Source: Hydrogenophilales bacterium (GTDB taxonomy: Bacteria; Pseudomonadota; Gammaproteobacteria; Burkholderiales; Thiobacillaceae). Taken from it: a stretch of DNA of 64,000 bases. Positions within the stretch are counted from its first letter, which is position 1; every line of letters starts with the position of its first letter. Of the stretch, positions 2-12,934 are shown piece by piece. The stretch is taken from the NCBI GenBank assembly GCA_016195805.1, contig JACPYT010000018.1, positions 77,549-141,548 on the forward strand. Reading direction: 5' to 3'. The notes beneath the pieces are model-generated. The model was not told the DNA's origin and did no database searches. It worked only from the letters and a program-made list of their open reading frames with translations. The position numbers and the translations under genes are program-made.

Positions 2-514
2 GCCAGTCCGCTGCCCATCCTCGGCAAGGGCATGCTGGAGCGCGCGATCAAGCAGCGCCGCCACCGTCCGGTTTTCATCGTCGACCTGGCCGTGCCGCGC
101 GACGTCGAGGCCGAGGTCGCCGATATGGATGACGTCTTTCTCTACAGCGTGGACGACCTCGGCCAGGTGGTACGCGAAGGCATGGACAACCGCGTCGCGC
201 AGGTGGCACAAGCCGAGGCCATCATCGAAACCAGCGTGGAAAGCTTCGTACACTGGATGGAAGGCCGCGAACTGGTGCCGGTGATCCGCTCGCTGCGCGA
301 CAACGCCGAACGCCATCGCCGCCACGAAATCGAGAAGGCCGAAAAGTCACTGGCACGCGGCGACGACCCGCGCGCCGTGCTCGAAGCGATGAGCCATGCG
401 CTCTCCAACAAGTTGCTTCACGCCCCCACCCACGCGCTCAATCACGCCGGCAGCGCCGAGCGCGACCAGATCGTTCGTCTGATCAGCCAGCTCTACGGGC
501 TGCACCGCGAATGA
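2..514 (+). CDS. hemA: Glutamyl-tRNA reductase, C-terminal part (5' truncated by window edge)
   Basis: This is the carboxy-terminal 170 residues of glutamyl-tRNA reductase, which reduces Glu-tRNA to glutamate-1-semialdehyde with NADPH in the C5 route to heme. The frame is open from base 2, so the gene begins outside the window. Visible family signatures are [10 protein letters not shown], the segment [12 protein letters not shown] that ends the NADPH-binding domain, and [11 protein letters not shown] at the start of the helical dimerisation domain. The rest is the charged helical C-terminus. The stop overlaps the prfA start as ATGA, so the two genes are probably translationally coupled, as is usual for hemA-prfA. 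The identification is sure; only the N-terminal catalytic domain is unseen. Confidence 0.95.
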
Positions 515-1593
515 AGGCCTCGCTCGCCGACAAGCTCGCTCGCGCCGACGAGCGGCTGGAGGAACTCGACGCGCTGCTGTCGCAACCGGAAATCGCCGGC
601 GACATGGAGGTCTACCGCAAGCTCACCCGCGAGCACGCCGATCTCAGCCCGGTCGTTGGGCTGTATCGCCAGTATCGGCAGATCGAGACCGACCAGAAAA
701 CCGCACGCGAAATGCTCGCCGACCCGGACATGCGCGAACTCGCCGAAGCCGAACTCGCCGACGGCGCCGCGAAAATCGCGCAACTGGAAAGCGCGCTGCA
801 GACCGCGCTGCTGCCGAAAGACCCCAACGACGAGCGCAACATCTTCCTCGAAATCCGCGCCGGCACCGGCGGCGACGAGTCCGCACTGTTCGCCGGCAAC
901 CTCCTGCGCATGTATACGCGCTACGCCGAGCGCCAGGGCTGGAAGGTCGAGATCGTGTCGGAAAATCCGGGCGAGGTCGGCGGCTACAAGGAAGTCATCG
1001 TGCGCATCGTCGGCCAGGGTGCCTATTCTCGTCTCAAGTTCGAATCGGGCGGCCACCGCGTGCAGCGCGTGCCGGAAACCGAATCGCAGGGCCGCATCCA
1101 CACCTCCGCCTGCACGGTGGCGGTGATGCCGGAAGCCGACGAGGTCGGTGAAGTCGACATCAACCCGGCCGACCTGCGCATCGACACCTTCCGGGCTTCC
1201 GGAGCGGGCGGCCAGCACATCAACAAGACCGATTCCGCGGTACGCATCACCCATCTGCCCACCGGCCTGGTGGTCGAATGCCAGGACGACCGCTCGCAGC
1301 ACCGCAACCGCGCCCAGGCGATGAGCGTGCTGGCGGCGCGTCTGAAAGACCGCGAAATCCAGGCGCAGCATGCCGCCGAGGCGAGCACGCGCAAGAGCCT
1401 GATCGGCACGGGCGACCGCTCCGACCGCATCCGCACCTACAACTTTCCGCAGGGCCGCATCACCGACCACCGCATCAACCTCACGCTGTACAAGATCGAC
1501 GCGATGATGGATGGCGATCTGACCGAGCTGTTCGACGCGCTGGCGGCCGAGCACCAGGCCGAACTGCTGGCGACGCTGGCCGGCGAGGCCTGA
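511..1593 (+). CDS. prfA: Peptide chain release factor 1
   Basis: A full-length class I release factor (360 aa) that reads UAA and UAG in the ribosomal A site and triggers peptidyl-tRNA hydrolysis. The catalytic GGQ is at residues 233-235 in the context GAGGQHINK, the same position as in E. coli RF1. The codon-recognition tripeptide is P-E-T at residues 188-190 in [10 protein letters not shown], which is the PxT form of RF1; RF2 has SPF. The gene overlaps hemA by four bases and is followed four bases later by prmC, whose product methylates the GGQ glutamine. The grouping of substrate and modifying enzyme is the conserved proteobacterial order. Confidence 0.97.
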
Positions 1594-1597
1594 AGCG

Positions 1598-2461
1598 GTG
1601 AAAGATGAGGCGGCCAGCGTCGCCGGCCTGATTGACGATGCCGGCGCGCGCATTTCGGCCGCGCTGGGCCTGGAAAAACGCGAAGCGCGCCTGGAAGCAC
1701 GGGTACTCGCGGCATTTGCCTGGGAGGTGGCCCCGGCCTGGTTGATTGCGCACGACACCGACCCGCTGACCGAGGCGCAAACCGCGCAATTCACGACGCT
1801 GCTGGCGCGCAGATTGTCCGGCGAACCGGTCGCCCATCTCACGGGCGCACGGGAGTTCTACGGCCGCAGCTTTCAGGTGTCGCCCGACGTGCTGATCCCG
1901 CGCCCCGATACCGAGCTGCTGGTCGAACTGGCGCTCGCGCGCATTCCCCCCGGCCAGGCCATGAAAGTGCTCGATCTCGGCACCGGTAGCGGCTGCATCG
2001 CCATCACCCTGGCGCTGGAACGTCCGCTCGCAGAGGTCACGGCAGTGGATCGTTCTGCCGCTGCGCTGGCCATTGCCCGGCACAACGCCGGCATTCTCGA
2101 CGCTCGCGTCGAATTCCTGGACAGCGACTGGTTCACCGCACTTACCGGACGACGCTTCGACCTCATCGTCGGCAACCCGCCCTACATCGCCGCCGCCGAC
2201 CCCCATCTGACGCGCGGCGACGTACGCTTTGAACCTCTGGGCGCGCTGACCGCCGGACCAGACGGCCTGGAGGACCTGCGCAAACTGGCCGCTGCAGCCG
2301 GCGCCCACCTCCAGCCCGGGGGCACGCTGCTGCTGGAACATGGGTATGACCAGGCCGACGCCGTACAGGCCTTGTTACAGGCCGCGGGGTTTCGTCATAT
2401 CCAAAGCTGGCCGGATCTGTCGGGAATCCGCCGTGTCAGCGGCGGCGATCTGTCGGAATAA
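1598..2461 (+). CDS. prmC: Release factor glutamine methyltransferase
   Basis: N5-glutamine methyltransferase (287 aa) that modifies the GGQ glutamine of RF1 and RF2 using SAM. An N-terminal helical recognition domain (about residues 1-100, ending in GEPVAHLTGAREFYG) precedes a Rossmann SAM-binding domain with LDLGTGSGCIA near residue 128. The catalytic NPPY tetrad lies near residue 193 and is diagnostic for amide methylation. The start is a GTG four bases after the prfA stop; no in-frame ATG lies near it. In related genomes grxD normally follows directly. Here about 3.1 kb separates prmC from grxD, filled by the cassette described in the next entries. Confidence 0.96.
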   Translation: MKDEAASVAGLIDDAGARISAALGLEKREARLEARVLAAFAWEVAPAWLIAHDTDPLTEAQTAQFTTLLARRLSGEPVAHLTGAREFYGRSFQVSPDVLIPRPDTELLVELALARIPPGQAMKVLDLGTGSGCIAITLALERPLAEVTAVDRSAAALAIARHNAGILDARVEFLDSDWFTALTGRRFDLIVGNPPYIAAADPHLTRGDVRFEPLGALTAGPDGLEDLRKLAAAAGAHLQPGGTLLLEHGYDQADAVQALLQAAGFRHIQSWPDLSGIRRVSGGDLSE

Positions 2462-2543
2462 TTTACACTCGCACACGTCACCGCCCCGCCAGGATCGCCG
2501 CAACACCCGCCCGATGGGCATTTCGGGCCGGGCCGTGTATATT

Positions 2544-2559
2544 TGGTGCGATTCTTGCT
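2544..2559 (+). promoter_or_regulatory. Candidate sigma-54 (-24/-12) promoter
   Basis: The sequence TGGTGCGATTCTTGCT lines up with the sigma-54 consensus TGGCACG-N4-TTGCW, with the invariant GG and GC exactly 12 bases apart. It lies about 40 bases before the ATG of the Cys-rich exported protein, in the 136-base prmC-to-cassette spacer. No good sigma-70 pair was seen in the spacer, although TATATT occurs at its centre. The match is by eye; an activator site was not identified. Confidence 0.5.
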
Positions 2560-2597
2560 GCATCCGGGACGAATCCAAATAATGATCGAGGCATGCC

Positions 2598-3248
2598 ATG
2601 TCTGACCTGACCCCCGAAACCCCTGACACTCCGCCCGCAGCCACTGAAAACAATACGGTCGATCAATCCCGCCGCAAGCTGACCGGTGCCGCACTGGGGA
2701 TGTCGGCAGTTTTCACGCTGGCGAGCCGCCCGGTATGGGCCAATCAGTGCAGCATTTCCGGCATGGCATCCGGCAACCTGTCCGCCCCCAAGGTCACGTG
2801 TGAAGGCTGTACGCCGGGTTACTGGAAGGTATGCAACCACTTCGACTCCTGGGGCTCGACCGGCTACAAGCTTACCGATACCTTCAACGCCGTTTTCGGG
2901 GTCACCCAATATGTCGACTGCAAGGGCACGCCTTATACCCTGCTCGACGTGCTCTATCTGAGCGGCAACACTTATTCGTGCCCTGGCAACAAGGACGCCA
3001 ACCCGAACGGCCCCCCCCCTACCTGTACCAACGGCACCTGCTTCCCCAGCCTGGGTGGCGACCCGATTTCCGTGAACCTCGGCTTCCACGCCGTCGCCGC
3101 GCTGCTGAACTCGGCCTACCCCAACATGAATTTCGGCTACACAGCCGGGGAGTTGATTACCTTCTTCAAAGCGAATTACCTGACGGATCCCGCCGGGCTG
3201 AAGGATTCGCTCGCCATGCTGAACGAGCGCTACTGCCCGTTGAATTGA
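2598..3248 (+). CDS. Exported Cys-rich CTPGYWK-motif protein, function unknown
   Basis: A 216-residue protein without a known function. After a 23-residue acidic/Thr-Pro leader comes a Tat-like signal: SRRKLTGAALG, a hydrophobic stretch, and a probable cleavage after SRPVWA near residue 48. The mature part has nine cysteines, a CEGCTPGYWKVC motif near residues 61-72 (CTPGYWK/CTPGFWK segments occur in various exported proteins), a Pro/Asn/Gly-rich loop around 130, and ends in RYCPLN. The cysteines suggest disulfides or metal binding outside the cytoplasm. It is the first gene of the cassette, only four bases before the PqqD-like gene, so it may be the substrate of the enzymes that follow. That role is inference. 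A sigma-54-like promoter precedes it. Confidence 0.75.
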   Translation: MSDLTPETPDTPPAATENNTVDQSRRKLTGAALGMSAVFTLASRPVWANQCSISGMASGNLSAPKVTCEGCTPGYWKVCNHFDSWGSTGYKLTDTFNAVFGVTQYVDCKGTPYTLLDVLYLSGNTYSCPGNKDANPNGPPPTCTNGTCFPSLGGDPISVNLGFHAVAALLNSAYPNMNFGYTAGELITFFKANYLTDPAGLKDSLAMLNERYCPLN

Positions 3249-3252
3249 TGCA

Positions 3253-3525
3253 ATGGCCCATGTCTCGTCGCTGCCGTCACGTCTATTGAAAATTTGGGGA
3301 GACGAAGCGGTCGTCTATGATGCGGCATCCGGCGACACGCATTACCTGAAGCCGTTGACCCTGGCGCTTTACCAGATCTGCCGCGACCACCCCGAATACA
3401 CGTCAACCGAGTTGGCAAGCGCGCTGGCAGCTCATTTTGACATGACGGCAACGCCGCAATTGCGGGAATTGACGGAAGACGCCTTCCACAGCCTGCACAA
3501 AATCGGCCTGCTGGAATCCGCATGA
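3253..3525 (+). CDS. PqqD family protein of the HPr-rel-A type system
   Basis: A 90-residue PqqD-like small protein. PqqD folds act as RiPP recognition elements that hold a precursor peptide for modifying enzymes. The pattern is typical: an N-terminal beta segment (LKIWGDEAVVYDAASGDTHY, about residues 11-30) that matches the VLLYPEG-like opening of PqqD proteins, then LKPLTLALYQIC and a winged-helix-like helical part ending in LHKIGLLES. It lies four bases after the Cys-rich gene and overlaps the HprK-related gene by ATGA, so the unit is surely cotranscribed. From memory, NCBIfam names this combination the HPr-rel-A system; no biochemical role is known to me. A peptide-chaperone role is inferred from the PqqD fold. 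Confidence 0.8.
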   Translation: MAHVSSLPSRLLKIWGDEAVVYDAASGDTHYLKPLTLALYQICRDHPEYTSTELASALAAHFDMTATPQLRELTEDAFHSLHKIGLLESA

Positions 3526-4442
3526 AATTGCTGCAGCTCCCCCGCGCCGAATTGCGACGGCAGTTGGCTGGTGCCGGCGTCTGGATGCGCACCGGACCGT
3601 TTTCGCTCAAGCTGCAATCACGCGTTCCGTCGGTCGCGGATGGCCTCGCCGAACTGTATGGCCAGTTCGAGGTGCGCAATACGCACGAAGCCTTTGCCGA
3701 CTTCCATGTGTCGGTGAACCCTCCAGCCACCCTGCGGCGCTGGCTGCGCCCCCAGGTGAATTTTTCATTCGACGGCATGCATCCCTTCAAGCCGCTGCCA
3801 CGCGACCAGGCGTTTCCGATGCTGGAGTGGGGACTCAACTGGTGCGTCTCGACGCAGGCACATCATTACCTCATCATCCACGCCGCCGTGGTCGAGAAGA
3901 ACGGCCTGGCCGCGATCCTGCCGGCGCCGCCAGGTTCGGGAAAAAGCACACTGACCGCGGGGCTGGTGCTGTCGGGCTGGCGCCTGCTGTCCGACGAGCT
4001 CACCCTGATCAACCGAAAAACCGGCCTGATCCAGCCGTTGCCACGCCCGGTCAGCCTGAAGAACCAGTCGATCGACATCATTCGGCTGTTCGATCCCGAC
4101 GCCTATATCAACCGCCCCTCGCACGACACGGTCAAGGGCACGGTGGCCCACATGCGCCCCCCGCGCGACAGCGTATTGCGCCAGCACGAGACGGCACGCC
4201 CGGGCTGGGTGATCTTCCCAAAGTGGGAAGCCGGCGCGGCGACCACACTCACGCCCCGATCGCAGGCCCAGACCTTCATGTTCCTGGCGCAGAATGCGTT
4301 CAATTACAGCCATCTGGGTGCCGACGGCTTCCGCGTGGGCGCAGCGCTGATCGACCAGACCCACTGCTACGATTTCCATTACAGCGATCTGCGCGAAGCC
4401 ATCGCCACCTTTGATCGCCTGGCGGAACGTCGAACCGACTGA
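3522..4442 (+). CDS. HprK-related kinase A
   Basis: A 306-residue protein related to the catalytic half of HPr kinase/phosphorylase, a P-loop serine kinase fold. The Walker A motif PPGSGKSTL lies near residues 136-144 after the beta strand AAILPAP, and LLSDELTLI (about 158-166) is the HprK-like Asp/Glu motif that follows the P-loop. The N-terminal 110 residues are specific to this subfamily. HPr itself is not encoded nearby, so the substrate is probably not the phosphotransferase carrier. Similar HprK-like kinases phosphorylate the C-terminal serine of some lasso peptides (paeninodin type), which makes a peptide or exported protein a reasonable target here. The gene overlaps its PqqD-like neighbour and is followed four bases later by the nucleotidyltransferase. 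Confidence 0.82.
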   Translation: MKLLQLPRAELRRQLAGAGVWMRTGPFSLKLQSRVPSVADGLAELYGQFEVRNTHEAFADFHVSVNPPATLRRWLRPQVNFSFDGMHPFKPLPRDQAFPMLEWGLNWCVSTQAHHYLIIHAAVVEKNGLAAILPAPPGSGKSTLTAGLVLSGWRLLSDELTLINRKTGLIQPLPRPVSLKNQSIDIIRLFDPDAYINRPSHDTVKGTVAHMRPPRDSVLRQHETARPGWVIFPKWEAGAATTLTPRSQAQTFMFLAQNAFNYSHLGADGFRVGAALIDQTHCYDFHYSDLREAIATFDRLAERRTD

Positions 4443-4446
4443 GCCC

Positions 4447-5541
4447 ATGAAGGTCCTGTCCCGCGATCTGCTCGCCCGCACCCTGCGCTCGCCCGAGTCC
4501 GTCAGCCGTTTCTCGATGAGCGAGTGGGACATCCTCGTGCGACAGGCGCGGACGGCAGGCTTGCTGGCACGGCTGGCCCATCGCCTCGGCCAGCACGGCC
4601 AGACGGCGTCGATCCCGGCGGTCGTCCGCTGGCACTTCGACGCCGCCGAAACCCTGGCCCACAAACAGCGGACGGCGGTGCACTGGGAGTTGCAGCAGAT
4701 CCGCAAGGCACTGCGTGATCTCGGCGGTCCGCTGATCGTGCTCAAGGGCGCAGCCTACGTGGCGGCCGACCTGCCGGCCGCAGAGGGCCGACTGTTCAAC
4801 GATATCGACATCCTGGTACCGCGCGAGTCCCTGCCCAAAGCCGAGTCCTCGCTCAGGCTGGCCGGCTGGCACGCCACCGGCCTCTCCGAATACGACAAGC
4901 GTTATTACCGCCGCTGGATGCACGAAATCCCGCCCATGCAGCATGTCCAGCGCGACACCGTGATCGATGTCCATCACGCGATCCTGCCGGACACGGCGCG
5001 CTATCACCCGGACTCCGCCAAACTGCGCAGCCGGGCCGTCGCGGTGGACGGCCTGCCCGGCATCCAGGTGCTGGCGCCGGAAGACCGCATCCTGCATTCG
5101 GCCACGCACTTGTTCCACGACGGCGAACTGCCGCACGGCCTGCGCGACCTGACCGACCTCGACCTGCTGTTGCGGGACGCCGCCGCCCCCGATTTCTGGC
5201 CTCGTCTGACCGCGCGCGCCGACGAACTGGAGCTCAGTCGTTCACTGTTCTATGCACTGCGTTATCTGCGCCATTTCCTCGACACGCCGGTCCCCGACAG
5301 CGTGTCGGCCGCCTTGGCCCCGGTTGCGCCGAATCGCGTCACGCTCGCTCTGATGGACCGCATCTTCACACGGGTGCTCGCACCCGCTCATGCCGGCTGC
5401 GCGGATGCCTTCACACCGCTTGCACGCCAGGCCGCCTTCGTGCGCGCCCACTGGCTGCGCATGCCTGCGCATCTGCTGCTCCCGCACCTGTTCCACAAGG
5501 CCTTCATCAGCCCCTATCAGCGCGACCCGAAACCAGCTTGA
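4447..5541 (+). CDS. Nucleotidyltransferase family protein (NTP_transf_5-like) of the cassette
   Basis: A 364-residue protein with a minimal nucleotidyltransferase core. LIVLKGAAY near residue 97 and the acidic motif GRLFNDIDILV with Asp119 and Asp121 are typical of the uncharacterised NTP_transf_5 group. A later HHAILPDT segment and a helical C-terminal half with several His and Arg residues follow. The ATG at 4447 is preferred over an ATG 36 bases upstream because that one lies inside the kinase gene and the upstream peptide is not family-like. Proteins of this group accompany HprK-like kinases in lasso peptide and capsule loci. The reaction and substrate are unknown. Its stop codon lies inside the -35 box of grxD, marking the cassette end. 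Confidence 0.8.
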   Translation: MKVLSRDLLARTLRSPESVSRFSMSEWDILVRQARTAGLLARLAHRLGQHGQTASIPAVVRWHFDAAETLAHKQRTAVHWELQQIRKALRDLGGPLIVLKGAAYVAADLPAAEGRLFNDIDILVPRESLPKAESSLRLAGWHATGLSEYDKRYYRRWMHEIPPMQHVQRDTVIDVHHAILPDTARYHPDSAKLRSRAVAVDGLPGIQVLAPEDRILHSATHLFHDGELPHGLRDLTDLDLLLRDAAAPDFWPRLTARADELELSRSLFYALRYLRHFLDTPVPDSVSAALAPVAPNRVTLALMDRIFTRVLAPAHAGCADAFTPLARQAAFVRAHWLRMPAHLLLPHLFHKAFISPYQRDPKPA

Positions 5542-5565
5542 CGCCGCTGCCGCCATGCGTATAAT
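5538..5565 (+). promoter_or_regulatory. Sigma-70 promoter of grxD
   Basis: TTGACG at 5538-5543 and TATAAT at 5560-5565 are separated by 16 bases, a near-consensus vegetative promoter. The -35 box contains the stop codon of the upstream nucleotidyltransferase gene, so grxD can be expressed independently of the cassette. The start codon lies 39 bases after the -10 box. Confidence 0.8.
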
Positions 5566-5604
5566 TCCCGACTATTCCAGTCAAGTATTGTTCAGGAGCC
5601 CCTC

Positions 5605-5928
5605 ATGACGACCCCTCTCGACCGCATCCGCGACCAAGTCACCAACAACACCGTCGTGCTGTATATGAAAGGCACGCCCCAGTTTCCGCAGTGCGGCTTC
5701 TCGTCGCGCGCAGCGCAAGTGCTGCAGGCCTGCGGCGTAAAGGACTTCCTGGCGGTCAACGTGCTGGCCGATCCGGAAATTTTCGAAAACCTGAAGTACT
5801 ACGCCAACTGGCCAACCTTCCCGCAGCTGTATGTGAAGGGCGAACTGATCGGCGGCTCCGACATCATGATCGAGATGTACCAGAAGGGCGAAATCCAGAA
5901 ACTGCTGGAAGAAGCGCAGGCCGCCTGA
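5605..5928 (+). CDS. grxD: Monothiol glutaredoxin, Grx4 family
   Basis: A 107-residue monothiol glutaredoxin that binds and transfers a glutathione-coordinated [2Fe-2S] cluster and works with BolA-type proteins in iron-sulfur delivery. The active site CGFS has its cysteine at residue 30 in FPQCGFSSRA. Other family marks are YMKGTP before it, NWPTFPQLYV (glutathione-binding TFPQ), and GGSDI. Length matches the family (about 105-115 aa). It has its own sigma-70 promoter and a clear terminator right after it. In relatives it sits directly behind prmC, so the cassette before it looks like an insertion in a conserved block. Confidence 0.97.
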   Translation: MTTPLDRIRDQVTNNTVVLYMKGTPQFPQCGFSSRAAQVLQACGVKDFLAVNVLADPEIFENLKYYANWPTFPQLYVKGELIGGSDIMIEMYQKGEIQKLLEEAQAA

Positions 5929-5943
5929 GCTGCCCACGCACGC

Positions 5944-5971
5944 AAAAAAGCCGACGCAAGTCGGCTTTTTT
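5944..5971. terminator. Bidirectional Rho-independent terminator between grxD and ntrC
   Basis: A perfect 12-base inverted repeat, AAAAAAGCCGAC then GCAA then its complement. The stem is GC-rich at the tip and flanked by A and T runs, so it can end both grxD (+) and ntrC (-). Confidence 0.9.
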
Positions 5972-6001
5972 GTTGCACGACATCCGGGCGTCAGGCAGCG
6001 A

Positions 6002-7420
6002 CTATTTCGGTTCGTCTCCCTCGGATTCCGCATCCATCCCCAGTTCATGGATTTTTCGCGTCAGGGTATTGCGCCCCCAACCGAGGAGATGTGCGGCTTC
6101 GATCCGGCGTCCCCCGGTATGGCGCAGCGCCACTTCGATCAGCGTTTTTTCGTACACCTGGGTCAGGTCGTCCAGAATCGCGGCCTCGCCGCGCGCCAGC
6201 CGCGCGCTGGCTTCGGCGGCCAGTCCCTGCAACCAGTCGCCGCCCGGTTGCTCGACTGTTCCCTGCATCAGATCGGCAGGCAGATCCCCTACCTCGACCA
6301 CCTGACCGGGCGCCATTACGGTCAGATAATGGCTGACGTTTTCAAGCTGGCGCACGTTGCCGCTCCACGGCAGGTTGACCAGCGTCTTCATCGCGGCGTC
6401 CGACACGCCCTTGGCCTCCATCCCCAGTTCGCGCGCGCTTTTCTGCATGAAATGGCGCACCAGCAGGGGAATGTCCTCGCGCCGCTCGCGTAGCGCCGGC
6501 AGGCGCAGACGAATCACGTTGAGGCGGTGGAACAGGTCTTCGCGGAACAGCCCCTCGCGCACCCGTACCTCCAGATCCTGGTGGGTGGCGGCGATCACCC
6601 GCACGTTGACCTTGATCGGCGTATGTCCGCCAACGCGGTAGAACTGGCCGTCGGCCAGCACGCGCAGCAGGCGGGTCTGCAGCTCGGCCGGCATGTCGCC
6701 GATCTCGTCCAGAAACAGCGTGCCGCCGTCGGCCTGCTCGAAGCGGCCGCGCCGCTGCGCCGCCGCCCCGGTAAACGCACCGCGCTCGTGACCGAAGAGT
6801 TCGGACTCCAGCAGATCCCTGGGGATGGCCGCAGTGTTCAACGCGATGAACGGCCCGCTGGCACGCGGGCTATGGCGATGCAACGCGCGCGCCACCAGTT
6901 CCTTGCCGCTGCCCGATTCGCCGGTGATCAGCACGGTGGCGTGCGACTGGCTCAGTCGCCCGATGGCGCGAAACACCTCCTGCATGGCGGGCGCCTGGCC
7001 GAGGATTTCCGGCACCGGCGCATCGCTGGTGGCAGGCACGTCTCGGCTGGCGTTTTCCGCCAGCGCGCGGCGCACCAGTTCGAGCGCCTGGTCGACGTCG
7101 AAGGGCTTGGGCAGGTATTCGAACGCGCCGCCCTGGAAGGCCGCCACGGCGCTGTCGAGGTCGGAATACGCAGTCATGATGATGACCGGCACCTTGGGCA
7201 GCCGCTCCTTCAGCGCCTGCAGCAATTCCAGACCGCTCACCCCCGGCATGCGGATGTCGGACAGCACCGCGGCAGGCGTGCTGCGTTCCAGTTCGCGCAG
7301 CGCATCGCTGGCCGAGCTGAAGGTCATGCAGGCGATATCCTCGCGCAGCAGGGCTTTTTCGAGCACCCAGCGAATGGAGCGGTCGTCGTCGATAATCCAG
7401 ACACAGCTAGTTTTTGACAT
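6002..7420 (-). CDS. ntrC: Nitrogen regulation response regulator NtrC (sigma-54 activator)
   Basis: A 472-residue enhancer-binding protein with three domains. The receiver has DDD at residues 11-13 and the phospho-acceptor Asp55 in VLSDIRMPG. The AAA+ domain has Walker A GESGSGKE, the sigma-54 loop GAFTGA and the Walker B region [10 protein letters not shown] Fis-type helix-turn-helix ([17 protein letters not shown]) sits at the C-terminus. The start at 7420 is chosen because the receiver begins immediately ([13 protein letters not shown]); a longer upstream reading adds non-conserved residues overlapping ntrB. The gene follows ntrB after five bases. Phosphorylated NtrC should act at the two-site enhancer before glnA in this window. 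Confidence 0.95.
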
Positions 7421-7425
7421 GGCGT

Positions 7426-8481
7426 TCAGGTCGGTAAGGGGAGAAAGATCGAGAAAACAGTGCGGCCGGGGCGGCTTTCGCACTCGATGGTGCCGTGGTT
7501 CTGCGCGACCAGCGTCTGCGCAACGGCGAGCCCGAGTCCGCTGCCGCCTTCGCGCCCGGACACCAGCGGAAAGAAGATCTGTTCGCGTATATCCTCGGGA
7601 ATGCCGGGGCCGTCGTCGATGATCTCGACGCGCATGCCGAGCTGGTAGCGCCGGCTCTCGAGCGTGATCTGCCGCGCCACCCGGGTCCTGAAAATGATCG
7701 CGCCCTGGCCATGCATCGCCTGCACGGCATTGCGTGCAATGTTGAGCGTGGCCTGAATCAGCTGTTCCGAGTCGGCGCGAATTTCCGGCAGGCTGATGTC
7801 GTAGTCGCGCCGCAATGACACGCTCGGCGTTTCGGCCAGAATCAGGCTGCGGACCCGCTCCAGCACTTCGTGAATGTTGACCGCACCAAAACGGGGCATG
7901 CGGTGCGGCGTCAGCAGACGCTCCATCAGCGACTGCAGCCGATCGGATTCCTTGATGATGACCTGGGTGTATTCGCGCAAGGATTCGCGCGGCAACTCGT
8001 GCTCGAGCAATTGGGCGGCGCCACGGATGCCGCCGAGCGGGTTCTTGATTTCATGCGCCAGGTTGCGCAGCAGTTCACGGTTGGCTTCCTGTTGCAGACG
8101 CGCCTGCTCCAGCCGGGCGATGCGCAGGTGCGGATCGACCGCACGCATTTCGATCAGCGCGGCGTGCGACGGCCTCTCCAGCGGCGAGACACTGCAGCCG
8201 AGGCGAATCGGCGGATGACCGCTCACCACGACGTCGAGCTCGTACTCAATGACGGTTTCCTGCTGCGTGCATGCAGTCTGGATGGCCGCGAGCAACTCGG
8301 GGCTGCGCTCGAACACCGCCACTGCATCCTCCCCGAGCAGCAGAACGCCCGACACCCCCAACAAGGTCTCGGCAGCCGGATTGACGAAGACGATATGGCC
8401 GTCGGCATCCAGAATCACGACGCCGGTAGACAGATAATCCAGTCCGGAAAATTCGGTGGGCGAGAACGGCGGCATGCTCAT
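7426..8481 (-). CDS. ntrB: Nitrogen regulation sensor kinase/phosphatase NtrB
   Basis: A soluble 351-residue sensor kinase for NtrC, normally controlled by PII. A PAS domain occupies about residues 12-120 (GVVILDADGHIVFVNPAAE). The HisKA domain has its phospho-acceptor His143 in NLAHEIKNPLGG, the NtrB-type H-box. The ATPase domain ends in DDGPGIP and GSGLGLAVAQ. No membrane segments are present, as expected. The start MSMPPFSP (ATG at 8481) is chosen because translation from the farther upstream ATG at 8547 would add residues encoded by a short repeat element. The ntrB-ntrC spacing of five bases implies one transcript. Confidence 0.94.
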   Translation of the reverse strand: MSMPPFSPTEFSGLDYLSTGVVILDADGHIVFVNPAAETLLGVSGVLLLGEDAVAVFERSPELLAAIQTACTQQETVIEYELDVVVSGHPPIRLGCSVSPLERPSHAALIEMRAVDPHLRIARLEQARLQQEANRELLRNLAHEIKNPLGGIRGAAQLLEHELPRESLREYTQVIIKESDRLQSLMERLLTPHRMPRFGAVNIHEVLERVRSLILAETPSVSLRRDYDISLPEIRADSEQLIQATLNIARNAVQAMHGQGAIIFRTRVARQITLESRRYQLGMRVEIIDDGPGIPEDIREQIFFPLVSGREGGSGLGLAVAQTLVAQNHGTIECESRPGRTVFSIFLPLPT

Positions 8482-8509
8482 GCACTCAGTTGAAGCACTG
8501 ATTGTGCCA

Positions 8510-8553
8510 GAGCGTGGTTGTTGAAGCTTCAGCTTCTTTACAACCACGGCCTA
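8510..8553. repeat. REP-like hairpin repeat, copy 1
   Basis: This 44-base unit folds on itself. GTGGTTGT at 8514-8521 pairs with ACAACCAC at 8540-8547, and inside that GAAGCT pairs with AGCTTC. A diverged copy lies at 8583-8624. It sits in the ntrB-DUF4124 spacer and does not look coding. Confidence 0.6.
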
Positions 8554-8582
8554 CTCTTTATGCCCACGGGTGCTTGCGGGTG

Positions 8583-8624
8583 GAGCGTGGTTGTTGACGC
8601 TTTAGCCTCTTACCCCGCGGCCTA
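8583..8624. repeat. REP-like repeat, copy 2 (degenerate)
   Basis: Second copy of the unit at 8510-8553, in the same direction 73 bases on: GAGCGTGGTTGTTGA is identical, followed by diverged bases and GCGGCCTA against ACGGCCTA. The closing arm of the hairpin is lost. The copy ends on the stop codon of the DUF4124 gene. Confidence 0.55.
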
Positions 8625-9092
8625 TTTCAGGTTGGCCAGCTCACGCTGTATAGCGGTAATGTTCTGCTCGTGCTGCTGCACCGCGGTGCGCAAGTTTTTT
8701 ACGCGATTGAGATAGGTGGTATCGGTGGCACGCTCGCCGGGCTGAAGGCGCTCGCCCAGCGTCAGCTGACGGCGCGCCTCGTCGGCATTGCGGCGTTCGC
8801 CTGAAATTTCATCCTGCAGCACCTGGCGACGGACGTCGTCGCGCCGTTTCTGCGTAGCGGGATCGATACGCGGAAAGTCCGCCGGACTGGGCGTATAGGA
8901 TGCGCGCCGGGACGATTTCTCGCTGGCCCGCAACTGCGTCGGCGCCCCGGGCAGGTCGACGCGTTTGGCGCCTTTTTTGTAGACGTCGGTAAACGTCACC
9001 TGGCCGTTTTCATCTACGTACTTGTAGATATCCGCCTGCACGGGCGCAGCCAGAATCAGGCACAACAGAAAGGAAAAACGGGCAATTGGCAT
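8622..9092 (-). CDS. DUF4124 domain protein, exported
   Basis: A 156-residue secreted or periplasmic protein. Residues 1-20 form a signal peptide (MPIARFSFLLCLILAAPVQA). The DUF4124 motif follows at once: DIYKYVDENGQVTFTD, the short beta-rich YKYVDxxGxxxxTD segment widespread in betaproteobacteria. The remainder is charged and helical (about residues 70-156, many Arg/Gln/Glu), probably a coiled coil. The start at 9092 is chosen because it places the signal peptide at the N-terminus. The gene lies between glnA and ntrB, a common position in this group; its function is not known. The last codons run into a repeat element. Confidence 0.85.
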   Translation of the reverse strand: MPIARFSFLLCLILAAPVQADIYKYVDENGQVTFTDVYKKGAKRVDLPGAPTQLRASEKSSRRASYTPSPADFPRIDPATQKRRDDVRRQVLQDEISGERRNADEARRQLTLGERLQPGERATDTTYLNRVKNLRTAVQQHEQNITAIQRELANLK

Positions 9093-9180
9093 AAGGCTGA
9101 GTGTAGCGTACCCGTTTTTAACGGACACAAGCCGGCAATCTTGATGCTCCCGTGAACGGTCATCTACGGGGAATACACGC

Positions 9181-9211
9181 AAAAAAAGGGGCAGCCGAAG
9201 CTGCCCCCTTG
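9181..9211 (-). terminator. Rho-independent terminator of glnA
   Basis: Read on the minus strand, AAGGGGGCAGC, a TTCG tetraloop, then GCTGCCCCTT followed by a T run. It lies 18 bases after the glnA stop and has the A/T tail on the glnA-downstream side only. Confidence 0.88.
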
Positions 9212-9228
9212 GGTGCACGGCGCCCTGT

Positions 9229-10638
9229 TTACAGCGAGTAATACATCGCGAATTCGACCGGGTGCGTGGTCATGCGGTACTTGGTGACTTCCTGCATCTT
9301 CAGTTCGATGTAGGCGTCGATCATGTCGTTGGTGAACACGCCGCCACGGGTCAGGAACTCGCGATCCTTGTCGAGTTCTTCCAGCGCCATTTCCAGGCTG
9401 TGGCAGACCTTCGGGATCTTCGCGTCTTCTTCCGGCGGCAGGTCGTACAGATCCTTGTCCGACGGATCGCCTGGGTGGATCTTGTTCTGGATGCCGTCGA
9501 GACCGGCCATCATCAGCGCAGCGAAGCACAGATACGGGTTGGCGGTCGGATCCGGGAAGCGGGTCTCGATGCGGCGGGCCTTCTCGCTGGCGGCGATCGG
9601 GATGCGGATCGAGGCCGAACGGTTGCGGGCCGAGTAGGCCAGCATCACGGGGGCTTCGAAGCCGGGCACCAGACGCTTGTACGAGTTGGTCGACGGGTTG
9701 GTGATCGCGTTCAGCGCCTTGGCGTGCTTGATGATGCCGCCGATGTAGTACAGGCACATTTCGGACAGGCCGGCGTAGCCGTTGCCCGCGAACAGGTTCT
9801 TGCCGTCTTTCCACAGCGACTGGTGGACGTGCATGCCGGAGCCGTTGTCGCCGACGATGGGCTTGGGCATGAAGGTCGCGGTCTTGCCGTAGGCGTGGGC
9901 GACGTTCTGCACGATGTACTTCAGGGTCTGCGTCCAGTCGGCGCGCTTGGTCAGCGTGTTGAACACGGTACCGATTTCGCACTGGCCGGCGGTGGCCACT
10001 TCGTGGTGGAACACTTCAACCGGGATGCCGGCTTCTTCCAGCGCCAGCACCATGGCGGCGCGGATGTCCTGCAGGCTGTCGACCGGGGGCACGGGGAAGT
10101 AGCCGCCCTTGACGCCGGGGCGGTGGCCGGTGTTGCCGTTCTCGAACTTCTCGGCGGACGACCAGGCCGCTTCTTCCGAATTGATCTTCACGCCGCAGCC
10201 CGACATGTTGTCGTGCCAGGTGATCGAATCGAAAATGAAGAACTCGGGTTCCGGACCGAAGTAAGCGGTGTCGGCGATGCCTGTCGACTTCAGATAGGCT
10301 TCGGCGCGCTTCGCCACCGAACGCGGATCGCGCTCGTAGCCCTTGCCGTCGGACGGCTCGATCACGTCGCAGGTCAGGATCAGCGTGGGCTCGTCGAAGA
10401 AGGGATCCATGTAGGCCGAATCGGGATCGGCTTTGAGCAGCATGTCGGACGCCTGAATACCTTTCCAGCCGGCGATCGAGGAGCCGTCGAACGGGTGGCC
10501 GTCTTCGAACCAGTCTTCGGTCACGATGCGGGCAGGAATGGAAACGTGCTGTTCCTTGCCGCGGGTATCGGTAAAGCGCAGATCGACGAATTTCACTTCG
10601 CCGTCCTTAATCATCTTGATCACATTGGCCACGGCCAT
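9229..10638 (-). CDS. glnA: Glutamine synthetase type I (GSI-beta)
   Basis: A 469-residue cytosolic enzyme that makes glutamine from glutamate, ammonia and ATP as a dodecamer. Recognisable family segments are [11 protein letters not shown] (N-terminal beta-grasp), [10 protein letters not shown] (metal-binding glutamates), [10 protein letters not shown] (NxxGxHxHxS, ammonium site) and RIP near NRSASIRIP. The adenylylation tyrosine lies in [10 protein letters not shown] near residue 400, so GlnE can switch it off. The ATG at 10638 is used because a GGAG ribosome binding site sits nine bases before it; the longer reading would include that site. Expression is expected from the sigma-54/NtrC region upstream. 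Confidence 0.97.
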
Positions 10639-10724
10639 GCTGAATCTCCTCAACTGAAATGGATTGAATTACGACGTTGGATGTCGCCCTGACCCGCCAC
10701 ACAAACGTCACACAAAAAGCTGTT

Positions 10725-10740
10725 AGCAGCAACCGTGCCA
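10725..10740 (-). promoter_or_regulatory. Sigma-54 promoter of glnA
   Basis: On the minus strand TGGCACGGTTGCTGCT matches TGGCACG-N4-TTGCW with the full -24 box and GC at -12. It lies 87 bases before the glnA ATG. NtrC sites lie roughly 100-145 bases upstream of the predicted start, as in enteric glnA. Confidence 0.82.
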
Positions 10741-10813
10741 TACGAAAATCGGGCGCCAGACATTGTGCCATAAGCATTCAGGCAACGGCATAGCGCGCGA
10801 CCATTTTCTCTAT

Positions 10814-10862
10814 TGCACCAAAAAAACGCATCAAAGCCCGCCTGCTGCACCAATGTGGTGCA
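10814..10862. promoter_or_regulatory. NtrC enhancer upstream of glnA
   Basis: TGCACCA-N3-TGGTGCA at 10846-10862 is a perfect 17-base palindrome identical in form to the strong NtrC site of E. coli glnA. A second half-site, TGCACCA, at 10814-10820 lies 32 bases away, close to three helical turns, and probably belongs to a weak partner site. It lies between glnA (-) and the rhodanese gene (+), so it might also act on the latter. Confidence 0.82.
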
Positions 10863-10921
10863 AATTGCATCGGGCAGGGGGTTTCATATACTGAACTGAC
10901 AATAAAATAAAAGGAAACATC

Positions 10922-11377
10922 ATGGGACGCATCACGGAGTTGCTCGACACGGCCCACCGTCGCAGCCAGTCAAATTCCTGGTCATTTGCCGGCGCACTGC
11001 TGCCCCACGAAGCGCATGAATTGCTGCAGATTGCACCCGGATCCCGCCTGATCGATGTACGTTCCCACGCAGAACTCGAACTCAACGGGGTCATACCCGG
11101 CGCGCTGCATGTCGAATGGCAAGCCTGGCCCGGCTGGGTCCTCAATCCCCACTTCCTGACCCAGCTTGCGCAGGCCTCCGATCCCGAATCCTTGCTGTTT
11201 TTCATCTGCCGCAGCGGCGAGCGTTCACACCGGGCAGCCGCTGCCTGCAGCGAAGCCGGACGCGGCAGTTGCTACAACGTGCTGGAAGGTATCGAAGGCG
11301 ACCTCAACAAGGCCACCGGCCACCGCAGCGAACTCAACGGCTGGAAACACCGCAGCCTGCCCTGGATTCAAAGCTGA
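10922..11377 (+). CDS. Rhodanese-like sulfurtransferase
   Basis: A 151-residue single-domain rhodanese. The active-site loop is FICRSGERSH with the catalytic Cys96 at its start, and SRLIDVRSHAEL (about residues 41-52) is the CH2A-type signature. The substrate is unknown; such proteins shuttle persulfide sulfur from thiosulfate or similar donors. No signal peptide is seen, so it should be cytosolic. A good ribosome binding site (AAAGGAAA) precedes the ATG. It is divergent from glnA and shares the intergenic region containing the NtrC palindrome, but it has no clear sigma-54 promoter of its own. Confidence 0.9.
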   Translation: MGRITELLDTAHRRSQSNSWSFAGALLPHEAHELLQIAPGSRLIDVRSHAELELNGVIPGALHVEWQAWPGWVLNPHFLTQLAQASDPESLLFFICRSGERSHRAAAACSEAGRGSCYNVLEGIEGDLNKATGHRSELNGWKHRSLPWIQS

Positions 11378-11435
11378 CGCGGCGACGCATACAAAAACGC
11401 CTGGCAACCGGTTGAGCGGCTAAAATACGGCCGCC

Positions 11436-12236
11436 ATGACCGACCGCTACGCCGTATTCGGGCACCCGATTGCCCACTCCAAATCCCCGCAGATCCACAC
11501 CGCCTTTGCCCGCCAGACCGGCCAGGACATGCGCTACGAAGCCATCCTCGCGCCGCTCGACGGGTTTGCGGCGAGCGTCGCTGCGTTCATCGCGGCAGGC
11601 GGGCGCGGCGCCAACGTCACCGTGCCGTTCAAGGAAGAGGCCTTCAGGCTGGCAAGCCGCCTGAGCCCACGCGCCCAGCGCGCCGGCGCAGTCAACACGC
11701 TGACCTTCGATGCCGACGGCATCCTCGGCGACAACACCGACGGCGCCGGCCTGGTCGCCGACCTCACGCACAACCTGCACTGCACGATCGCCGGCCAACG
11801 CATCCTGCTGCTCGGCGCCGGCGGCGCGGCGCGCGGCGTGATCGAGCCGCTGCTCGACCAGCAGCCCGCCGCGCTCGTCATCGCCAACCGCACCGTCAGC
11901 CGCGCACAGGAACTCGCCGAGCTGTTCGGCCGCGGCGTCCGCGCGTGCGGCTTCGACGCGGTCGACACCCCTTTCGACCTCGTCATCAACGCCACCGCCG
12001 CCAGCCTCGCCGGCGACCTGCCGCCGCTGTCGCCGCGCGTGTTCACCCCCGACACGCTGGCCTACGACATGATGTACGGCCGCAACACGCCCTTCCTCGA
12101 CTTCGCCCGCACGCACGGGGCACGCACCGCCGACGGCCTCGGTATGCTGGTCGAACAGGCCGCCGAAGCGTTCTACATGTGGCGCGGCGTGCGCCCCGAC
12201 ACCGCGCCCGTCATCGCGAGTCTGCGCACAGCATGA
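11436..12236 (+). CDS. aroE: Shikimate dehydrogenase
   Basis: NADP-dependent reduction of 3-dehydroshikimate to shikimate, fourth step of the chorismate route (266 aa). The N-terminal substrate domain has [13 protein letters not shown] (residues 8-20; SKS binds the carboxylate) and [10 protein letters not shown] with the catalytic Lys. The Rossmann domain has [10 protein letters not shown], followed by [12 protein letters not shown], which carries the NRT motif typical of NADP preference. YDMMYG and the [11 protein letters not shown] region close the fold. The stop overlaps the mtgA start in the sequence ATGATG. Confidence 0.96.
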
Positions 12237-12934
12237 TGAAGAAAGTGTTCGGCTGGCTCGGCAAAGGCGTCGCGGCAGCGATCACGCTGGCGCTGCTGTA
12301 TCAGGTGTGGCTGTTCGCGCACGTGCTGTGGTGGATCGATCACAACCCCGCCTCCACCTCATTCATGGAAGCCGGCCTGGCACGCCAGCAGGAAAAGAAT
12401 CCCGACGCCGAACTGCGCCACAAGTGGGTGCCCTACGACCGCATCTCCATCCACCTGAAGCGCGCCATCGTCGCCGCCGAGGATGCCAAATTCCTCTCGC
12501 ACGAAGGGTTTGACGTGGACGGCATCCAGCTCGCGGTCGAGAAGAACCTGAAGAAAGGCCGCCTCGTCGCCGGCGGCTCCACCATCAGCCAGCAGCTCGC
12601 CAAGAACCTGTTCCTCTCCGGTGAGCGCAGCTTCATCCGCAAGGGACAGGAAGCCGTCATCACGCTCATGATCGAAGCCACCTGGAGCAAGCGCCGCATC
12701 CTCGATGTGTATCTGAACGTCATCGAATGGGGCGACGGCATCTACGGCGCCGAAGCCGCCGCGCGCCGCTACTACAAGACCTCCGCCGCCAACCTCGGCC
12801 GCGACCAGGCCGCCCGCCTGGCCGCCATGGTGCCCAACCCGCGCTGGTACGAGAACCACCGCAGCTCGCGCGCGTACCAGCGGCGCGTCGCGGTGATCAG
12901 CCGGTATATGGGGAGCGCGCAGGTGCCACGCTGA
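12233..12934 (+). CDS. mtgA: Monofunctional biosynthetic peptidoglycan transglycosylase
   Basis: A 233-residue GT51 glycosyltransferase that polymerises lipid II glycan strands without a transpeptidase domain. One N-terminal membrane anchor lies at about residues 12-35. The donor-site motif is [14 protein letters not shown] with catalytic Glu83, followed by [15 protein letters not shown] and the [13 protein letters not shown] segment; [16 protein letters not shown] is GT51 motif 5. ATG at 12233 overlaps the aroE stop, so the two are coupled, as in other betaproteobacteria. The AT-rich island begins immediately after its stop codon. Confidence 0.95.

Follow-up and report, generated by a model that had tools for sequence, protein, structure and literature searches.

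The closest described relatives of the system considered here are two families of phosphorylated peptides. Phosphorylated and hexosylated lasso peptides such as paeninodin and pseudomycoidin involve an HprK-like kinase with conserved His, Lys and Asp residues, a nucleotidyltransferase and a discrete B1-type recognition protein (PMC9266682). The linear polyphosphorylated peptides (LPP), a 2026 family from Bacillota, have a discrete RRE, an HprK-like kinase and an NTP transferase, and their precursors of 35-200 aa have a conserved N-terminus and a highly variable C-terminus (PMC13381572). The kinases of both families phosphorylate serine, which is core residue S3 in the case of LppK (PMC13381572, PMC9266682). 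PsmN is required for the hexoses on phosphoserine, directly or via a host enzyme (PMC9266682), and no effect of LppN was detected in the host (PMC13381572). The main text of the LPP paper contains none of the terms Proteobacteria, Pseudomonadota, Gram-negative, twin-arginine or Tat (PMC13381572). The HPr-rel-A system is represented by two NCBIfam entries, TIGR04352 (HprK_rel_A) and TIGR04353 (PqqD_rel_X), whose names and descriptions give no substrate or function; a literature search on these names and accessions found no paper using them and no published function.

In the window (the whole stretch of DNA analysed, 64,000 nucleotides), the ORF listing places four same-strand ORFs at 2598-5541, encoding a protein here called EXP, a PqqD-like protein, a kinase and a nucleotidyltransferase (Table 1). 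An earlier note on this DNA had described them as separated by 4-bp gaps or an ATGA overlap, which the coordinates confirm. For the nucleotidyltransferase, the ATG is preferred as the start, and the alternative TTG at 4411 proposed by the ORF tool is less likely. The PqqD-like protein matches TIGR04353, "HPr-rel-A system PqqD family peptide chaperone", at 74.7 bits (cut-off 35), and the kinase matches TIGR04352 at 406.6 bits (cut-off 200), both above the curated cut-offs; the adjoining nucleotidyltransferase matches PF14907 at 213.8 bits (cut-off 31.2). These matches bear out the three protein types that had been read from the sequence, their likeness to a lasso peptide enzyme set and the name HPr-rel-A given in the note.

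Table 1. Features of the cassette and its flanks, in window positions
Feature	Position	Strand	Remarks
prmC, left flank	1598..2461	+	family scan
EXP, exported substrate candidate	2598..3248	+	216 aa; no Pfam or NCBIfam match in the window protein scan
EXP leader / Tat-like signal peptide, residues 25-48 (RRKLTGAALGMSAVFTLASRPVWA)	2670..2741	+	leader profile
Candidate modification site, serine cluster C51-x-x-S54-G-x-x-S58-G-N-x-S62	2748..2783	+	motif conservation; low-confidence model stretch
PqqD-like protein, RRE-type peptide chaperone	3253..3525	+	90 aa; 4-bp gap after EXP; TIGR04353
HprK-related kinase A	3522..4442	+	306 aa; ATGA overlap with PqqD gene; TIGR04352
Kinase Walker A	3933-3950	+	within TIGR04352 kinase
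Nucleotidyltransferase	4447..5541	+	364 aa from ATG; 4-bp gap after kinase; PF14907
Nucleotidyltransferase GR....DxD motif	4786-4809	+	within PF14907 protein
grxD, right flank	5605..5928	+	family scan

Judged by sequence, the catalytic motifs of the cassette enzymes are intact. The kinase matches the HprK/PEPCK-type P-loop kinase fold and has the P-loop, His and Asp residues, and G114, R115, D119 and D121 of the nucleotidyltransferase are each conserved at 93% or more across the 77 sequences aligned. T29 of the PqqD-like protein is invariant across all 73 aligned sequences. In two related HprK-like kinases (L116 and L117), an N-terminal stretch resembles PqqD with sub-threshold scores. Assignment of the cassette kinase as HPr kinase/phosphorylase was rejected, since it scores 15.6 bits with TIGR00679, whose cut-off is 240; the genome has a true HprK at a separate locus (L120, 354.6 bits).

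By family type, the cassette shares with LPP clusters the discrete RRE, the HprK-like kinase and the NTP transferase, and LPP clusters are also frequent in polysaccharide loci (PMC13381572). However, the LPP leader YxxPxVLxHQxIxFETxxS (PMC13381572) is absent from the N-terminus of EXP, which is Tat-like instead and precedes a predicted folded domain. LPP clusters also encode an SpI-type peptidase and an MsbA-like transporter (PMC13381572), and neither type was found among the window genes at 2-12934, that is, to about 7 kb downstream of the cassette. The earlier note had stated that no B2 protease or cyclase of lasso peptide biosynthesis is present, and the genome searches agree: the B2 transglutaminase-like peptidase family PF13471 has no match in the genome at E<=0.001, and the best genomic score for the macrolactam cyclase is 223 bits against a cut-off of 525, with none among the window neighbours. 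Unlike a lasso peptide, the candidate substrate EXP extends for about 170 aa past the leader. By analogy, the enzymology of the cassette would parallel that of lasso peptides and LPP, except that the leader is of Tat type and the protein behind it is folded.

The cassette had been placed at a site where prmC and grxD normally adjoin, and this holds in the relatives compared. The two genes are directly adjacent in three genomes of the genus Thiobacillus that have no cassette there (G093, G056 and G105), and also in two genomes of another genus (G108 and G111). The window is placed in this genus by the names of its database matches. A full-length match to the kinase is present in 51 of the 56 genomes of the genus, so the empty sites may represent losses rather than sites before insertion.

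EXP proteins are a near-constant partner of the HPr-rel-A system, newly identified here. They were detected with a leader profile (threshold 12 bits) trained on one locus set, from proteins first gathered as EXP relatives, and tested on a second. Set 1 comprised 100 stretches (L061-L160 and the window), from which L120 and L156 (kinase below 100 bits) and L115, L116, L117 and L157 (sub-cut-off relatives) were excluded, leaving 94 loci; the gene-call table has a called kinase above 290 bits at 88. The profile finds an adjacent same-strand ORF at 84/94 loci (60/60 training loci and 24/34 outside training; best background 10 bits). In set 2, an adjacent same-strand leader protein is present at 73/80 loci (best background 5.7 bits), although the contigs of three loci (L161, L185 and L214) appear from their lengths to be set-1 contigs, so these 80 loci are not wholly independent; of the other seven, three score 6.7-9.6 bits, three are cut by contig ends and one (L223) has none. 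The earlier note had asked whether the trio usually occurs without a linked exported protein, and the link held in both sets. The order EXP, PqqD, kinase, nucleotidyltransferase, or the same with EXP last, is found at 69/94 and 76/80 loci (54/94 and 74/80 for the EXP-first order alone), and since all four parts occur together so often, their grouping is not due to chance.

There are several departures from this pattern. Five loci lack a neighbouring EXP but have one elsewhere in the same genome, and L223 and L114 have the trio with no adjacent EXP. Six loci of genome family f13 have EXP, kinase and nucleotidyltransferase, with PqqD not recognised; at four of these, a small ORF with no family match occupies its place. 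Across the phylum, the kinase is found in 61 of 398 sampled genomes, and a leader match at E<=5e-6 in 49 of these 61 and in 0/337 others. At E<=1e-4, eight kinase-free genomes have a leader match and eight kinase genomes have none. Given the origin of the 40-row training alignment (A3; 30 rows from set 1, 10 from set 2), this search tests specificity better than sensitivity.

The feature common to EXPs is the leader, a twin-arginine motif followed by a conserved end, "TL-S-P/A-x-A". The analysis of 138 EXPs (134 loci) covers those parsed by a start-finding rule; a rough pattern of the leader and AxA-type end fits 116/138, and 132 have RR and six KR, although the rule itself requires [RK]R. The first interpretation of the locus stands in its name, enzyme set, link to an exported protein and genomic site, but not in its choice of CTPGYWK as the shared feature, which occurs in only 6/138 EXPs ([TS]PG[YFWC][WFY] in 44/138). 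In the window, the twin-arginine N-terminus, seen by eye and by profile, and nine mature cysteines agree with the exported Cys-rich protein described from the sequence.

The cassette probably serves to modify and export a single protein, EXP, in a substrate-guided manner. The RiPP recognition element would be the PqqD-like protein: it would bind the conserved Tat-like signal peptide, using it as a leader, and bring the kinase to EXP. That the leader is instead an ordinary Tat signal peptide, with EXP in the operon by chance or through shared regulation, is very unlikely, even though the twin-arginine motif fits Tat and one EXP (L083) weakly matches a Tat target model (15.1 bits). The window EXP, the one copy found in its genome, scores 53 bits with the leader profile, and the next best protein scores 18, two of these lower-scoring proteins being Tat-like by eye; the absence of leader matches from kinase-free genomes at the stricter threshold also argues against it. 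Within the genus, the leader is 84% identical and most of the mature part 40%, and the single control exported protein has the reverse pattern (signal 61%, mature 82%), although a truncated start in the control set (L121) lowers its signal identity. Leader divergence has a rank correlation of 0.26 with PqqD and 0.37 with the kinase (133 loci), which gives no hint that leader and PqqD co-evolve in any special way.

In the guided-modification reading, the kinase would phosphorylate one or more serines of EXP, the likeliest being those of the flexible S-G-x-x-S-G-N-x-S segment directly behind the cleavage site. The motif C-x(1,3)-S-[GA]-x(2,3)-S is present in 33/33 parsed EXPs of the family, and is confined to one EXP class; other classes have no single obvious common site. 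In the AF2 model, residues 1-46 have pLDDT <50, residues from about 47 to 65 are low, and the domain that follows is mostly >90, so EXP is predicted to be a flexible segment ahead of a folded domain. The nucleotidyltransferase may then add a nucleotide or sugar onto the phosphate; this second step is the weakest because of the LppN result. Tat, whose TatC component is encoded in the genome, would export folded EXP, and a general signal peptidase would remove the leader; at the 7/88 loci with a trypsin-like protease near the kinase, a dedicated peptidase is possible. Tat proofreading chaperones hold back cargo until it is mature, via signal-peptide binding. The cassette would likewise couple cytoplasmic maturation to Tat export, and may retain EXP until modified, using a PqqD-type protein rather than a chaperone of the TorD/DmsD type.

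Mature EXP sequences are hypervariable behind the constant leader, which could suggest strain conflict, with EXP as a secreted antagonist or signal (a RiPP-like toxin or bacteriocin) that the kinase and nucleotidyltransferase tailor or keep inactive inside the cell. Alternative cassettes in one region fit this idea, as two genomes of the window's genus have a kinase that shares 89-91% identity with one from a different genus and 56% with that of the window, and one of these two genomes has two kinase-nucleotidyltransferase pairs in tandem; the kinase also occurs on four plasmid records. However, inspection by eye of the 30 neighbour clusters that occur most often showed none resembling an immunity or exporter gene, many neighbours being unclassified singletons, and 59/61 leader-positive genomes have a single match, though L133, L146, L179 and L238 show two EXPs. 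Together with the wide carriage of the kinase in the genus and the many partner loci of exopolysaccharide/XrtA type, this makes an antagonist unlikely.

Many cassette loci are embedded in XrtA exopolysaccharide clusters, with glycosyltransferases and an amidotransferase as neighbours, and the kinase is present in 25/35 XrtA genomes and 36/363 others (raw genome counts, kinship ignored). Under the preferred reading, mature EXP would act outside the inner membrane, probably with this surface system. The same context, and the fact that nucleotidyltransferases often produce sugar nucleotides, could instead mean that both enzymes target a carbohydrate or lipid carrier used in making exopolysaccharide, with EXP a matrix protein in its own right, exported by Tat, and PqqD a partner that has nothing to do with them; three XrtA-context loci (L078, L079 and L092) indeed have the kinase with neither PqqD nor EXP. 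Such a role is nevertheless improbable. The pairing with EXP is near-constant, and in three of the five loci whose EXP lies elsewhere in the genome (L279, L281 and L282) PqqD adjoins EXP, away from the kinase and nucleotidyltransferase; a further locus, L280, has EXP with no PqqD beside it. Cassettes also occur outside exopolysaccharide clusters, including the window's, which is not beside XrtA. Kinase/RRE/nucleotidyltransferase sets of known activity target peptides (PMC13381572, PMC9266682).

From sequence comparison, then, a four-gene cassette in many proteobacteria appears to mark one variable protein bound for export with phosphate, possibly also with sugar, while it is still inside the cell, and to pick it out by its export signal. 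More tentatively, the Tat signal peptide may double as a RiPP leader. Reading it, a PqqD-type RRE would direct the phosphorylation, and the phospho-glycosylation or nucleotidylation, of an entire folded protein, and would delay Tat export until this is complete; the result would be a large proteobacterial system whose surface or matrix proteins are phospho-modified, diversify fast and are linked to XrtA and exopolysaccharide. The EXP leader family adds a candidate substrate to the HPr-rel-A entries, and naming it makes HPr-rel-A a directly testable system. If the proposal is true, RiPP-style guided modification would be joined to Tat export, and guided modification of folded surface proteins would be added in Gram-negative bacteria. 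It would also offer a way to learn what phosphorylated RiPPs do; the relatives in Bacillota are likewise often found in polysaccharide loci (PMC13381572).

The earlier note's layout of four genes was borne out on reading the window sequence, with the ORFs placed as it had described; the first and last junctions are 4-bp gaps, and at the middle one the genes overlap by 4 bp (ATGA). The kinase and the PqqD-like protein both score above the cut-offs for the NCBIfam HPr-rel-A pair (TIGR04352 and TIGR04353), and the fourth gene is a PF14907 nucleotidyltransferase by Pfam. The putative exported substrate protein (EXP) has no match in Pfam or NCBIfam, and its nearest named relatives are Thiobacillus proteins; ten EXPs from other loci likewise gave nothing above cut-off against family models. 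As far as position 12,934, the rest of the window's genes have housekeeping or regulatory roles by Pfam, or no known function (DUF4124).

A same-strand adjacent ORF matching a profile of the Tat-like EXP leader was found at 84 of the 94 first-set loci that remained after exclusions, and the profile, not retrained, matched at 73/80 loci of a second set. Among the ten remaining first-set loci, L063 and L152 have leader proteins visible at 6.8 bits. The L152, L139 and L145 loci are cut by contig ends, and at L076 EXP and PqqD are both on the opposite strand. No leader protein is found near L078, L079, L092, L099 or L114, and each of these genomes has one elsewhere, the match in one of these five genomes (G330) being weak (E 3e-5). 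The unlinked EXP has PqqD beside it at L279, L281 and L282, with a kinase-nucleotidyltransferase locus lacking a recognised PqqD, and is without PqqD at L280 and L283; two more EXP-PqqD pairs, L284 and L285, lie on contigs other than that of the kinase.

The leader follows the pattern RRxLxKG...PxxxTLxSxPAxA, with RR in all displayed second-set leaders apart from L199 and L240, which have KR, and L214, which is truncated. EXP scores 53 bits against the leader profile in the window's genome, and the next protein 18. Across 398 genomes, leader matches at E<=1e-4 occur in 53/61 kinase genomes versus 8/337 others, and at E<=5e-6 in 49/61 versus 0/337. Within the genus, 11 EXPs are 84% identical in the leader, 71% in the first 16 mature residues and 40% in the rest. 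The control exported protein shows the reverse (10 sequences; signal 61%, mature 82%). The EXP pattern would be that of a leader needing recognition and is not the one expected if a signal peptide is kept solely for export, although one control makes for a thin comparison.

Simple sequence patterns divide the mature parts of 138 EXPs into the classes C-x-x-S-[GA]-x-x-S (73), C-terminal [S]C[WF]xS (33, including the CEIPVP proteins of one genome family, f45), ARTSN (6), leftover CEIPVP (3) and other (23). The cysteine number is even in 108/138, which fits disulfides, though the sequences are mutually related. The serine motif is present in all 33 parsed EXPs of the window's family, a cleaner figure than the invariance of S54 and S58 in the EXP alignment, whose locus rows were partly picked by a similar motif. 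In the AF2 model of the window EXP, the motif serines lie in a low-confidence segment followed by a confident domain, for which the PDB gave no convincing match. By eye, [CA][WFYL]xS[FLIV] recurs near the C-terminus in several classes and is a rival candidate modification site, reminiscent of the C-terminal Ser in lasso peptides.

In the kinase, H120, the P-loop lysine and D158-E159 are kept in 20 aligned members, and the predicted structure aligns with PEPCK across 287/306 residues, which we take to fit the HprK/PEPCK superfamily. GR....DxD is kept in the nucleotidyltransferase. If recogniser and kinase act jointly, a natural fusion of the two is predicted; the related kinases L116 and L117, with PqqD-like N-termini at sub-threshold scores, would match this arrangement, as would L115, whose PqqD-like stretch is seen by eye only. 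Next to the L115 kinase is a 70-aa ORF whose N-terminus is leader-like, in surroundings resembling an exopolysaccharide export locus; this locus may represent a small-peptide relative of the system. At the family-f13 loci L096, L098, L102 and L103, small ORFs that occupy the PqqD position gave no match in a family search, and are possibly diverged PqqDs.

Coordinates of individual features
Locus	Position	Feature
L083	8722-10392	TPR-sulfotransferase
L115	7998-9475	HprK-like kinase, PqqD-like N-terminus (by eye)
L301	6712-6966	Unannotated 84-aa ORF, PqqD position, Vibrio alfacsensis plasmid

TIGR04352 is above cut-off in 83/117 genomes of the window's family and 61/398 of the phylum sample, and among the second-set hosts are Massilia, Duganella, Methylomonas, Nitrosomonas, Thioalkalivibrio, Zooshikella and Thalassotalea. 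On the Vibrio alfacsensis plasmid, the cassette comprises EXP (leader 21.6 bits), the tabulated ORF, kinase and nucleotidyltransferase. Gene orders are EXP-PqqD-kinase-nucleotidyltransferase or PqqD-kinase-nucleotidyltransferase-EXP. PrmC lies <=3 genes upstream of the kinase in 27/36 family loci with a called kinase, and prmC adjoins grxD in three same-genus genomes without a kinase there and in two genomes of another genus. Cassettes appear, from sequence comparison, to be exchanged among relatives, since the kinases of L141 (G074:C40) and L159 (G080:C51), from the window's genus, are 89-91% identical to another genus's kinase and just 56% to the window's, and at L141 the foreign-like cassette is followed by a second pair whose kinase is 73% identical to the window's. 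The two L141 kinase-nucleotidyltransferase pairs stand in tandem between prmC and grxD.

In many loci, as scanned in representatives, the cassette lies among XrtA/PEP-CTERM genes (TIGR03087, TIGR03108, TIGR03019, PrsT, PrsK). XrtA is above cut-off in 35/398 genomes, and the kinase occurs in 25 of these versus 36/363 others, in counts uncorrected for phylogeny; the XrtA of the window's genome is on a different contig. A TPR-sulfotransferase (cluster c122), near kinase and nucleotidyltransferase at 11/88 loci and often between the two, may add a sulfate step. A trypsin/HtrA-like protease (cluster c49), close to the cassette at 7/88 loci (L063, L064, L077, L089, L098, L102, L103), is a possible processing enzyme there.

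The mechanism proposed for the window cassette is drawn from two parallels. The LPP systems of Bacillota combine an RRE, an HprK-like kinase and an NTP transferase with precursors whose N-terminus is constant and whose C-terminus varies; LppK puts a phosphate on core residue Ser3, no visible effect is reported for LppN, and capsule loci are frequent, the biological role being given as unknown (PMC13381572). In lasso peptides, according to a review, PsmK phosphorylates and hexoses depend on PsmN (PMC9266682). The window system differs in its Tat-like leader, in the size and predicted fold of its substrate, and in having no peptidase or exporter beside the cassette, and is thus a variant. The chemistry we infer is well motivated and unproven. 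The cassette itself is a real, widespread system, and EXP, its near-constant partner, is a newly defined family of putative substrates.
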